Below, in pieces: positions 19,096 through 25,742 of a stretch of 64,000 nt of DNA. Where the stretch lies: assembly GCF_026914265.1 (NCBI RefSeq), contig NC_069136.1, positions 17,421,228-17,485,227 of the forward strand. Reading direction: 5' to 3'. Positions within the stretch are counted from its first letter, which is position 1, and every line of letters starts with the position of its first letter. The translations under genes were made by a program, and so were the position numbers. The notes under the pieces are model-generated. The model was not told the origin of the DNA, made no database searches, and worked only from the letters and a program-made list of their open reading frames with translations. This DNA is from Mya arenaria. Its lineage: Eukaryota; Mollusca; Bivalvia; Myida; Myidae.

Positions 19096-19487
19096 GTTAC
19101 GGCCTCCAATACAAGAAGGATCGCCTTTCAAACATAATGACGACGAAGACGCGTGTGATTACGAAGCAGATCGAGAGACACTAAGCCGAAGGGGACGGGG
19201 CGGGGGAAGTGGTCAAGGCCAATCACAAAGGGGAGGAATACTCCGCAGACAGCCACTTGGCAGCAGGTTCCTTGATAGGCTTGCGGAACGGGAGCCAGCG
19301 GATATACTTCAAACGATTTCTTACCCGCAGACGGATCTTAGAGACACTCTGGCTCGCATCGCCACGGACAACAATATGATCGCTCTACTGTTAAGGGTTC
19401 TTGCAAAGGCGTTCACGTGTCAATCGAAGCCAGAGTGCCTCAACCGGGTGTTAATTATCATCAAAGGGGCAAAGGTCTACGACATAG
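19096..19487 (+). CDS. Paralogue cassette a, exon 2-like
   Basis: 392 nt, phase 2 in and 1 out, fully open. It shares LAEREPADILQTIS and LLLRVLAKAFTCQS with the intact gene, but the RG block is shorter. Acceptor ACCTTTAG, donor ATAG|GTAATG. Confidence 0.75.
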
Positions 19488-19725
19488 GTAATGCAACACA
19501 ACCAGCCTCACAGAATATGTATCATTATCAAAATAATGCAGTTACCTCGCTAATTTTATATACACCTGTTTATAAAGTACAAATTTTAACTATGATCTTA
19601 CTATCTAAGTCATACATTCTGGCCTTTCTTAATTGTGTAAATTGATTTAAAGAAATTCTACACTCTACTGTAACTGTGTATTGTTCAACCTGATATTACG
19701 CCTTACTCTTTGTGCTATTGTTATA

Positions 19726-22545
19726 TGTTTGTCTTAACGTCCCTCCGCACAAAAAACAAACACATGTTTGCATGGGGCAAGACTTCGATAGAAAGAAATT
19801 CAATTAGTTAGAGAAGTTATCATTCAAATTCGAAAAGAAATATCATACAAGGCATATATCTAACTATCCATGCATATTTTGCAAATTCAATTGTTTGTTT
19901 TGAAACATTTTACTTGTTTTGAACTGAATTATCGATATATGAATCTTTTGCTCGATCCGATTTCCATCTGCCATGCTGTTTAAGACAACGCTCGCTTACA
20001 GCGCCGAAATAAGCCGCCTTAGTCACCCCACTAGCGCGCAACGAGTGCGTACCAAAATTTAAACCCGGAGCCACCGACTTAAGTTTTCCAACAATCAATT
20101 CCCCAGCTCTGATAAAAATAAGCTTTTTACACTTAGAACCTGAACGCCAACAGGCCTAAACAAATACATATCTGAATCTGAATTTAAACCAGGACAATAC
20201 ATGAAAAGCATTTCCATGGGGCACGCGCTAGTGACGTCTTTGGCAACGTATACATCTCTTCCTTCGCGATACACGTCGATTTTACTTTAACGCACATGTA
20301 TTATCATATAATCAGACATAAACCTTACATCTTTATATCTCAACTCACTGACTTCACTATATCTAAAAATTAGTGCGTAACTAAGTAATGCAAATGACAG
20401 ATCACGTAAAAAAATACATCAGTGTAATCTATATACATGTCACATAGTTTTATAACATGATCTGTAGACAAAACATCCCTTTTCACAATAGGTTTAGAGT
20501 TATGTCGCTTTGCACATTCTAACGTGCTTTTCACAATATAATTATGCTGGATCAGGCAGATCATTAATCCTGTGAAACCACCTATCAAATTCGACAAAAA
20601 CATTGCAACGTGAATAGATTGTGCAGGGTTCGTGGGAAATCCTTTAGCACCACAAACATACTTTAAATGCTTTCAAGTTTTCTATTTCTATTATATTATG
20701 ACTCTGTGTCTTAAAGCTCTAAAATACTTAACAACACAATTAACAGTCTTTGAAAATATATGCCCGCCAGAACATATGCCAAATGGTAAGGAATTGTAGA
20801 CATAAAACTTTTTTTTCTGATCCAACCGACCATGACAAGCCTAAGTATGTCCTATTGTGCTTGCAAATATCTATATGGTGATATGCGCTTTTCAAATCGT
20901 ACGTGAAAACAAAACTTGACAGGTCAAACATCTGTAGAGCAATATATATATATATCCTCAAACTGAATGTTAAATAAATGCAAATATGGATTTATGTGCC
21001 TACAGTCGAGGACCAATCTAGGTTTACCAGACTAGCCGTAAGCCACGGTTAATGGGTTCACTACCCAAGGTTGTTCATGCACTTCTGATATAACACCTTC
21101 AGCCAACAACGAGCGTATTTCTGTTTCTACAAACGCCAGGTTATCTCTTGCGGACTTATTGTTCTTTGAATGAACTTTTGGAGGAACACTCTTAAATGGA
21201 AGCTTATATCCATTTCGTACCGCATCGAGAATATATCTATCATCGGTAATGTCTTCCCACTTTTCAAATGATTTCTTTAAATGATCTACTGGTGATAAGA
21301 TTTGAGCCGCGTCGATTCTGCAATGTTCTTGTACCTTTAAATCATCTTAATAAACTATACTACACTGATCTTTGCATACCTGACTGACGCTCTCCGATCC
21401 GCTACATCCTTTTACATGCTTCTTATTTGTAAATGCACCAACCTCTCCTGGATAAGCATGTACATGCTTATCCGCATATTCTTCGAAGCAAACATTACAA
21501 ACAAAACTTAATAGCACTTATCTTGTTGTTGTAGCGCTTGTTCTAGCAACATTCCGACTTCCCATGCCCGGGCATTCAACATAGGAAGCAAAGCCCCGGA
21601 AGCAAACGTTGTCCGCTGATTGGAACCGCCGGGGATTCAGATGCTTGCGCGGGTTTCCTGTACAAATACGGCCATTTCTTAGACTCCGAACGCTAGGTGC
21701 TCACTGGCCGGGCTTTTCTTGATGCTCTGGTTTTCCGCCTTGTATATCCTCTTTTTGTCATCACTGTCAGTCGCAATAGGATTGACCTCGTACTCGCCAA
21801 TGACTTTCCACCCCCACTCTGGTGAATCGGCCAGCTGAATACGTTTCTGCCTTCTTTTTACAAAGTCTTGAGCTAAAAAAACACTCACAGGCCCTTTTAA
21901 ATATTTCTAAAATTATGCATGCACTGCGTCGTGTTCAATTCCCCTTATCCCTATACTGGCTATCGAGAGGATGACAGCGCTTATTGTGTTATGTAAAACC
22001 TATCCTTGACCATGTCGGATGAACGATAAAAATCAATTCAACTTACATATACTTTCAATTTCCTTCAATGACGGATTCTTAAGCCCTTTCAATACTGTCG
22101 GTGCTATTATAGCAGGTGGCCTCATCCAACTTCGACATAACCTTAGAATTGTGTTTAAATTGTTCTTCGTTACTTTTACGTTTAAAAGTTGGGTTATCTG
22201 CCAAATTTGCGGCAGACTGATGAGAAGGCTAAGCACTTATTTTGTCAATCATACTGCCAATGCTCTTCCACAAATCATTGTTGTTTCCTTCCAAGGCCGC
22301 TTTCACTTTACCTTCAACCAACTGCTTTACGTGTCTTTCGTCCATTACAGTAAAAAATGCTAAAATCGATGTTCACTGTTAAAAGTCAAGTCTAGAACTG
22401 ATTTTCCCGCCAATATAACCGATCACCCTAGCTCGAATACCTCGTGAACTTCACGCTCAAATGACACGCGGCGCATTTGCGCTCATTACACGTTAGGATA
22501 TTCGTTCTGCCATATACATGTACTCCGTAACGATCAGAACTATCA
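19726..22545 (-). mobile_element. Fossil DIRS-like tyrosine-recombinase retrotransposon
   Basis: On the - strand there are remnants of three parts in DIRS order: a gag-like region (about 21680-22350), a reverse transcriptase remnant with a FTYDLKSAYHH core (about 20740-21360) and a tyrosine recombinase remnant with HSLRASG and HGRWKS (about 19910-20098). The element is broken in several places and has no clear terminal repeats. It lies in the intron between cassette a exons 2 and 3, so it is younger than the duplication. The borders are approximate. Confidence 0.75.
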
Positions 22546-22808
22546 AATACTGCTGTATGTCGGCATGACAATGTTTGTATGTAACTGTTGACAATGCACT
22601 TTAAGTATAAACTTTTGAAAACATGTTCATCATTCAGTGGTGTTTCTAAAATACGAACTATGTGTATATTTACTCTAATGATATGATGCCTTACTCTTTG
22701 TGCTATTTGTAAATGTTTATACTGCTGTGTGTCAACATGGCTATGTTTGTATGCAACTGTTGACAATGAAATTTAAATGTCATTTTCGTAAACATGTTCA
22801 TGATTCAG
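22546..22808 (+). repeat. Duplicated end of intron beside the DIRS fossil
   Basis: The intron 3' end, including the acceptor and the first bases of exon 3 (CAGTGGTGT), occurs at about 22546-22645 and again at about 22719-22820. Both match the single copy in cassette b (about 25070-25175). The upstream acceptor at about 22636 leads into intron-like sequence. Confidence 0.65.
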
Positions 22809-22946
22809 TGGTGTCCTACTTTATGGACATGCAGGGCGAGGACAGCCCGCACGTGCGGCGCGGGTTCCAACAGCCGCTTCGGGACATGGTCACCGTCATG
22901 TCAAAATTCGTCGAGAAAAACCCGTCATCTATCACGGAGATTATAG
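22809..22946 (+). CDS. Paralogue cassette a, exon 3-like
   Basis: 138 nt in phase 1-1, open, encoding YFMDMQGEDSPHVRRGFQQP. The acceptor is GATTCAG and the donor is followed by the (TA)n(GA)n tract. Confidence 0.8.
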   Translation, partial: WCPTLWTCRARTARTCGAGSNSRFGTWSPSCQNSSRKTRHLSRRL

Positions 22947-22957
22947 GTACGTATCAG

Positions 22958-24391: not shown

Positions 24392-24768
24392 GTTACGGCC
24401 TCCCCAACAGAGTGACAACGAGGATTCGTTGGATGACATGGCAAACCGAGAGACACGCGGCCGAGGGGGACGGGGCGGGGGAGGGGGTCAAGGACGAACC
24501 CGTAGGGAAAGGGCGTCCAGCAGACATCCACTAGACATAGACAAAAGGATCTTGGAGAGGCTGGCGGACAGGGAGCCGGCGGATATACTTCAAACGATTT
24601 CCAACCCGCAGACGGAGCTAAAAGACGTCCTGGGCCGCATCGCCACGAACGACACTTTGATCGCTCTACTGTTAAGGGTTCTTGCAAAGGCGTTCACGCG
24701 TCAATCGAAGTCAGAGTATCTCAACCGGGTGTTAATTATCATCAAAGAGGCAAAGGTCTTCGACACAG
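24392..24768 (+). CDS. Paralogue cassette b, exon 2-like
   Basis: 377 nt, phase 2 in and 1 out, open. It has a Gly-rich block (GRGGRGGGGGQG) in place of the RGG run and keeps the REPADILQTISNPQTEL segment. The 200 bp before it match those before cassette a, so the two cassettes arose by local duplication. Confidence 0.75.
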
Positions 24769-25167
24769 GTAATAAAACACATCCAGCCTTACAGAATATG
24801 TATTATAATCAAAATAATGCAATTACTAAAGTCATTTTCAACGGTATGTCAACTTATTATTACTCTATCACTTATTTTATACACGCATGTATATAAAGTA
24901 CATACTTGAACTAAGACCTTACTATTTAGGTAATACATCCTAGCCTTTTTGAATCATATCATATCAAATTATATAAAGAAATTCTACACTTGACTTTAAT
25001 TGTTTCTTAAATACAAACTATGTGTTTGTTCACTCTAATTATATTACGCCTTTCTCTTTGTGCTATTGGTACATGTTTATTCTGCTATATGTCGTCATGG
25101 TTATGTGTGTTTGTTAATGTCGATAAAATTAAAGAAATAGACTTTTGGAAACATGGTTATGTTTCAG

Positions 25168-25305
25168 TGGTTCCCTACTTTATGGACATGCAGGGCGAGG
25201 ACAGGCCGCACGTGCGGCTCGGGTTCCGACAGCCGCTTCGGGACATGGTCACCATCATGTTAAAATTCGTCGAGAAAAAACCGATTTCTATCATGGAGAT
25301 TGTAG
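25168..25305 (+). CDS. Paralogue cassette b, exon 3-like
   Basis: 138 nt, open, encoding DMQGEDRPHVRLGFRQPLRD. The acceptor is GTTTCAG and the donor GTAG|GTACG. Confidence 0.8.
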
Positions 25306-25606
25306 GTACGTACTAGTAATTTAGGTTTTAATCATATGCCATTGCATACAATCTTAAACAAATGTAATAGTATCACTAAGCCATTTTGAAAACCCACATA
25401 ACAATTTGACTGGTGTCAAGTGAGTTCAGTAATTAAGTAATTTTCTTTACAAACTCTAGTTTGGTATGTGTTGATGCATGAAAACTACATACATTGCCAT
25501 TATAGTGTATAGTGTAAAAGCTCAGCGTTTCCAATTTATATAGCTTACTTTAATTGATGGTACGAGCGTATTTTGTTTTACCTTTTGGATGTTTGTTGTC
25601 TTTAAG

Positions 25607-25742
25607 GGTTTCACAAATTGCTGCAAACGGTCATAGATAGACTGCGAGAGAGTACTGACGTCATTGATGACGACATACTTCAAAACTTCCGGTTACTGAC
25701 AGAAACAAAGGAGGACATTCTGCGAAAACGAACTGCTAAAAG
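25607..25742 (+). CDS. Paralogue cassette b, exon 4-like
   Basis: 136 nt, open, encoding LRESTDVIDDDILQNFRLLT. It leaves in phase 2, the phase needed by the candidate acceptor at 26300-26301. Confidence 0.8.

Follow-up and report, generated by a model that had tools for sequence, protein, structure and literature searches.

A helicase-less tandem copy of ZNFX1 carrying two ARM-type exon cassettes in the bivalve Mya arenaria

ZNFX1 is a metazoan SF1 RNA helicase whose human form has an Armadillo-type (ARM) domain; its ARM and P-loop NTPase domains have been proposed to participate in NLRP3 binding, and the gene has been argued to be under purifying selection (review PMC11959080). According to a paper on a fish ZNFX1, the ARM domain of human ZNFX1 makes the contact with MAVS, and the fish protein has no conserved ARM domain (PMC12585102), so the domain varies among lineages. 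Three potential ZNFX1 genes have been described in a mollusc, Aplysia (PMC9334734). The duplication of domain-encoding exons in immune genes is already known from 4Ig B7-H3, in which a tandem exon duplication doubled the immunoglobulin domains (PMC3172298), and tandem duplicated exons have been described more generally (PMC9741552, PMC9013439). A search of the open-licence literature for ZNFX1 together with "exon duplication" found no paper. Here we describe a stretch of 64,000 nucleotides (nt) from the bivalve Mya arenaria (contig NC_069136.1, positions 17,421,228 to 17,485,227 of the forward strand; hereafter the window), in which an apparently intact ZNFX1 gene, gene A (3768-15475, plus strand), adjoins a second copy, copy B, that spans about 18.2-29.5 kb and carries a block of three exons, the exon 2-3-4 cassette, twice.

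Gene A is like other ZNFX1 genes in its ARM-type domain, ZNFX1 domain, AAA_11/AAA_12 helicase and RZ finger, whereas copy B has the ARM-type domain two times over, no SF1 helicase and no open zinc-finger/RZ tail. The analysis shows that the two cassettes of copy B are old and that their reading frame was kept while introns and synonymous sites diverged. As in 4Ig B7-H3, a whole-domain exon block was duplicated in an immune gene in a way that yields a double-domain product; 4Ig B7-H3, however, is a working vertebrate gene, while here the block lies in a disabled-looking copy and may also stem from the fusion of two genes. The locus resembles the tandem duplicated exons in its adjacent homologous exon units of matching phases, but each unit here comprises three exons and mutually exclusive splicing is unsupported at this locus.

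The exon 2-3-4 cassette and its product

In gene A the cassette consists of exon 2 (5120..5538, 419 nt), exon 3 (6618..6755, 138 nt) and exon 4 (8031..8166, 136 nt). Copy B contains it as B1 (exon 2, 19096..19487, 392 nt; exon 3, 22809..22946, 138 nt; exon 4, 23528..23663, 136 nt) and again as B2 (exon 2, 24392..24768, 377 nt; exon 3, 25168..25305, 138 nt; exon 4, 25607..25742, 136 nt), all on the plus strand. The lengths of exons 3 and 4 are identical in the three copies, the cassette totals of 693 (A), 666 (B1) and 651 (B2) nt are all multiples of three, no cassette contains a stop codon, and each of the nine exons is preceded by AG and followed by GT. Taken singly, exon 2 runs from phase 2 to phase 1, exon 3 from phase 1 to phase 1 and exon 4 from phase 1 to phase 2; exons 2 and 4 are not phase-symmetric alone, and only the full block is 2-2. 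These measurements bear out an initial annotation made from the sequence, which had recognized three cassettes, one in gene A and two in a helicase-less copy, that enter and leave in phase 2 and retain exon lengths modulo three (exons 3 and 4 exactly), open frames and splice sites. Phase symmetry alone is weak evidence, since it occurs by chance in one block out of three and is a prerequisite for any duplicated block to remain open. The exon 4 donors of copy B are weaker than that of gene A: gtgcaa in B1 and gtgcga in B2 agree with the consensus at 6/9 and 7/9 positions, respectively, as compared with 8/9 for gtgaga in A. The exon 2 donor of B1 is likewise lower (6/9 versus 7/9).

The two units of copy B are adjacent and homologous, share entry and exit phase and meet at a single junction within introns (24227..24229, plus strand), where likeness to the end of the B2 unit (26000-26025) extends up to 24229 and likeness to the start of the B1 unit (18929) begins at 24227.

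On sequence match, the cassette is predicted to encode the whole ARM-type N-terminal domain of ZNFX1 together with an RG-rich leader, which occupies cassette residues 1 to about 50. A profile of the three cassettes, with exon 5 added to the gene A row, matched Protein Data Bank (PDB) chain 9eve_A (199 aa), which is listed as NFX1-type zinc finger-containing protein 1, with positions 53-219 of the 222 in the profile aligned (E 2.9e-12), and also the longer PDB chain 9q9z_A (E 9.8e-12). The ARM parts of the single copies matched 9eve_A with E values of 2.2e-10 (A), 1.2e-9 (B1) and 3.5e-8 (B2). The identification was made through 9eve_A, and the ARM label is taken from PMC11959080. The match to 9eve_A stops a few residues from the exon 4 boundary, at chain residue 187 of 199, and the shortness of this chain suggests that the domain was solved on its own. 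When the cassettes were spliced and scanned with Pfam, A and B1 had no match, and B2 had two weak ones under the cut-off (best E 0.022). The exons for the ZNFX1 ARM domain in M. arenaria would form a self-contained, phase-symmetric module whose repetition leaves the frame intact.

Two introns of the B1 unit hold inserted sequence. Intron 2 contains a decayed mobile element on the minus strand (19910-22370), pieces of which look by eye like the tyrosine recombinase and the reverse transcriptase of DIRS-like elements; its five minus-strand pieces matched no Pfam family above the cut-off and gave one chance-level match, to COX1 (E 0.028). The insert in intron 4 (23703-24010) begins with a sequence of about 38 nt repeated twice in tandem, has an end inverted relative to its start and, judged by eye, resembles a small element with terminal repeats; it is not found at the matching place in B2.

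Age of the double cassette and constraint on its frame

Between the B1 and B2 units, the proportion of differing positions among the pooled alignable intron and flank sites is 0.157-0.199, varying with the gap cost (0.100-0.189 in single blocks), and synonymous (dS) and nonsynonymous (dN) divergence between the two cassettes amounts to 0.19-0.22 and 0.15-0.17, respectively. With pooled introns 16-20% apart and dS of about 0.2, the duplication is not recent, and the proposal in the initial annotation that the open frames might reflect a very recent duplication is not borne out. Between the A and B cassettes, dS reaches 0.28-0.33. These distances also bear on the assembly, as adjacent tandem copies are a frequent artefact, and copy B or one of its cassettes might be an uncollapsed haplotype. 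Such an artefact is most improbable here, given that aligned non-coding blocks of B1 are 10-19% apart from those of B2, and those of A 22-29% from those of B, more than usual allelic divergence, and that the copies hold different insertions.

The double cassette could have arisen in either of two ways. A tandem duplication from intron 1 to intron 4 within one gene would have produced a double-ARM ZNFX1 in one event. Alternatively, two complete tandem genes may have been fused by a deletion that removed everything between intron 4 of the first gene and intron 1 of the next, a history that fits the local presence of tandem ZNFX1 copies. The junction does not discriminate between them, since both would leave the same one.

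Constraint on the cassettes is evident from insertions and deletions (indels). At the nucleotide level, the ARM-coding part of B1 and B2 has accumulated no indel in 497 sites, as compared with 15-40 in 971-980 intron and flank sites, a contrast that held in all five gap settings (Fisher p 6.3e-8 to 0.0039). This indicates that both B cassettes were translated and selected during much of their history. The conclusion is drawn from the ARM-coding part, the alignment of the RG-rich leader being ambiguous: there, B1 and B2 are separated by one internal 21-nt in-frame gap in the four stiffer settings and by six small gaps in the softest, and the codon alignment places an additional 6-nt in-frame difference in an end that was trimmed from the nucleotide comparison. 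Stop codons point the same way. In a neutral simulation (kappa 2, base composition fixed by us) with all substitutions neutral, 3.8 stops were expected in the two B cassettes and none was found (P=0.017). The constraint on the N-terminal part at which the initial annotation hinted is in this respect upheld. That the cassettes evolved neutrally and have stayed open by chance is accordingly very improbable; a B1-B2 dN/dS ratio (omega) of 0.75, with a bootstrap interval of 0.51-1.13, would agree with such neutrality, but the lack of indels, the stop-free frames and the AG and GT kept at all six B cassette exons would not.

Codon models give a less definite answer. A three-branch model with a single omega yielded 0.63, which is below 1 (p=0.009), and a split model yielded 0.49 on the A branch and 0.75 on the B branches. 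The equality of synonymous and nonsynonymous divergence that the initial annotation had named as its refutation is hence rejected for the three branches together and not for the B branches, for which an omega of 0.75 is indistinguishable both from 1 (likelihood ratio test, p=0.23) and from the 0.49 of A (p=0.26). When only the ARM part is considered, the B branches have an omega of 0.65 (against 1, p=0.16). Together with the result for the B branches, several further observations weigh against a history of selection on both cassettes. In the RG-rich leader, omega on the B branches is 1.29 (against 1, p=0.54). Under the softest gap setting, five of the six leader gaps are not multiples of three, shifting the frame and cancelling one another, and the same is true of seven of the nine gaps in an alignment of the whole of exon 2, whose 5' end is poorly placed, in not being multiples of three. 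Moreover, if half of the B1 and B2 substitutions are taken as neutral, the stop-free outcome has a probability of 0.14, which makes the stop count weak on its own. The cassette sequence behaved like a translated, fast-changing domain, and its amino-acid constraint is weak.

The broken tail and the fate of copy B

The similarity of copy B to gene A starts with the region before exon 1 (18186..18316, plus strand, 69% to 3587-3721 just upstream of gene A exon 1), covers exons 2-4 twice, and then takes in the final two fifths of exon 6, exon 7 and the 3' flank. No counterpart of coding exon 1 can be recognised in copy B downstream of 18186..18316. When the gene A product (1890 residues) was compared with copy B by tblastn (E<=0.01), residues 8-243 were matched in B1, 69-243 in B2 and 1228-1890 in the tail; residues 244-1227, which comprise exon 5 together with the ZNFX1 and helicase domains, had no match at this threshold, confirming that the helicase is missing. 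The 3' flanks of the two copies (16341-16731 and 29598-30000) are 80-88% identical, indicating that the A-B tandem duplication reaches beyond the coding exons.

The tail of copy B (26306..28083, plus strand) is the counterpart of gene A 12705-14499, the end of exon 6, and has a 16-nt deletion near 26564-26568 (aligned as 3 plus 13), a 1-nt deletion at 27209 and two in-frame stops, TAA and TGA; the counterpart of exon 7, the last exon, with its RZ finger (28397..28593, plus strand), has two internal in-frame stops. The tail is therefore broken, as had been annotated. This count of six lesions leaves out cancelling gap pairs (two in the exon 6 part and one in exon 7), a stop at A 12702 just beyond the homology and gaps after A 14499, which lie in the intron. 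The distribution of lesions, all of them in the tail (1975 nt) and none in the cassettes (1317 nt), is borderline, with p 0.047 if six are counted, 0.078 for five and 0.130 for four, and so is compatible with cassettes that are still in use, which counts against reading copy B as simply dead.

At the level of amino-acid substitution, the order of constraint is the reverse of the one implied by the initial annotation, which had contrasted preserved cassettes with a broken tail. The dN/dS comparison it had proposed gave 0.54-0.75 for the cassette pairs and 0.197 (0.15-0.27) for the tail (A vs B, 586 codons, an average over the A and B branches), and for each of the three cassette pairs none of 390 paired bootstrap replicates reversed this order. 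Historically, constraint has been stronger on the tail than on the cassettes. Had the B branch been neutral ever since its origin, the tail omega should have risen to about 0.5 or more, barring conversion with A. Within a tail that is otherwise 83-91% identical, one block (A 13626-13925, B 27210-27509) has about 96% identity and low dS, which suggests a past gene conversion tract between A and B; without this block the tail omega is 0.19.

The data presented above have led us to propose that copy B is probably a young pseudogene whose ARM cassettes keep the marks of earlier selection. Copy B would be a tandem paralog of gene A minus the helicase. Its cassettes would have evolved as translated parts of a working ZNFX1 protein until the loss of the helicase sequence disabled the gene, after which the tail would have gained its lesions while the smaller cassettes, by luck or through residual use, gained none. 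A processed or long-neutral pseudogene was considered as well and is at odds with the presence of introns and with the frame constraint after duplication. A ZNFX1 tandem array would thereby be able to turn over by domain duplication and helicase loss, and copy B, if it is not expressed, would offer a clean example of an open frame in a dead gene that records past and not present selection.

It is possible, if unlikely, that copy B still works, with both cassettes spliced into a helicase-less double-ARM protein that serves as a decoy for, or a modulator of, signalling by full-length ZNFX1. Such a product would end either through read-through of the weakened exon 4 donor or where the first lesion of the tail is reached. 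In silico, read-through after B2 exon 4 gives an open frame of 471 residues from an in-frame ATG at 19073; reading past the exon 4 donor is open in both B1 and B2 and meets an immediate stop in A. An AG at 26300-26301, which may be in frame by chance (one in three), would permit B2 exon 4 to be spliced in frame to 26302, giving a frame of 542 residues that closes just past the 16-nt deletion. The weaker B donors and the ARM-mediated contact with MAVS stated for human ZNFX1 (PMC12585102) would also suit this explanation, whereas the B-branch omega, the lack of a recognisable exon 1 and the fact that earlier constraint can explain the retained frames speak against it. The narrower proposal, that a helicase-less double-ARM protein of about 470 residues competes with or tunes full-length ZNFX1 at a signalling partner, is doubtful; such a protein should be able to bind the partners of the ARM domain but not to unwind RNA. 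If copy B is expressed, it would represent a naturally occurring modulator of an antiviral sensor that consists of ARM domains only, and if the double-ARM product does act in this way, an immune-sensor gene would have made its own regulator through domain duplication and loss of its enzyme.

While the gene was functional, B1 and B2 might instead have been included one at a time, as alternative ARM domains. The 2-2 symmetry of the unit would allow either or both to be included in frame, and tandem duplicated exons are known for mutually exclusive splicing (PMC9741552, PMC9013439). Alternatives of three exons are unusual, and we regard this use as improbable; the favored interpretation of copy B is still that of a young pseudogene with formerly selected cassettes.

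Gene A and other features of the window

In our model gene A has seven coding exons on the plus strand, which when joined encode 1890 residues with one terminal stop. Exon 1 (3768..3802) begins with the ATG start codon and ends in phase 2 at the donor TAG/gtgagt. Exon 2 would encode the RG-rich leader and the first part of the ARM-type domain, and exon 4 leaves in phase 2, the phase in which exon 5 (8583..8682), a linker that leaves in phase 0, is entered. Exon 6 (9852..14499) contains the ZNFX1 domain (PF25396, 1.7e-31), the SF1 helicase (AAA_11, PF13086, 1.6e-27; AAA_12, PF13087, 1.5e-39), both found by Pfam, and a cysteine-rich region. Exon 7 (15279..15475) carries the C-terminal RZ-type zinc finger (PF20173, 3.2e-16) and the stop codon. 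The zf-NF-X1 family was not among the six Pfam families reported for gene A (E<=0.001); Cys/His-rich repeats are visible by eye in the translation.

Repeats occur in two introns of gene A. The last intron contains one member (14695-15015) of an inverted pair whose other member lies at 35777-36098; the two are 82-84% similar and are probably a dispersed repeat. Intron 2 contains a copy (5546-6029) of another, partly inverted dispersed repeat, also found at 31625-31981 and 42087-42572, that looks like a short palindromic mobile element.

ARAGORN in its bacterial setting found no tRNA. Elsewhere in the window, tandem arrays are present at 3248-3427 (spacing 36 nt), 37426-38295 (145 nt) and 55033-55430 (127-144 nt). 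An open frame on the minus strand at 39201-40286 encodes the RING (PF16685, 1e-23) and CXC (PF16682, 1.1e-11) domains of MSL2. Two further gene copies resembling each other, at 83-92% in blocks, are located on the minus strand at 49426-50702 and 58466-59721; the former, the one that was scanned, matches the IgGFc-binding domain (PF17517, 9e-20 and 7e-10) across two overlapping frames.

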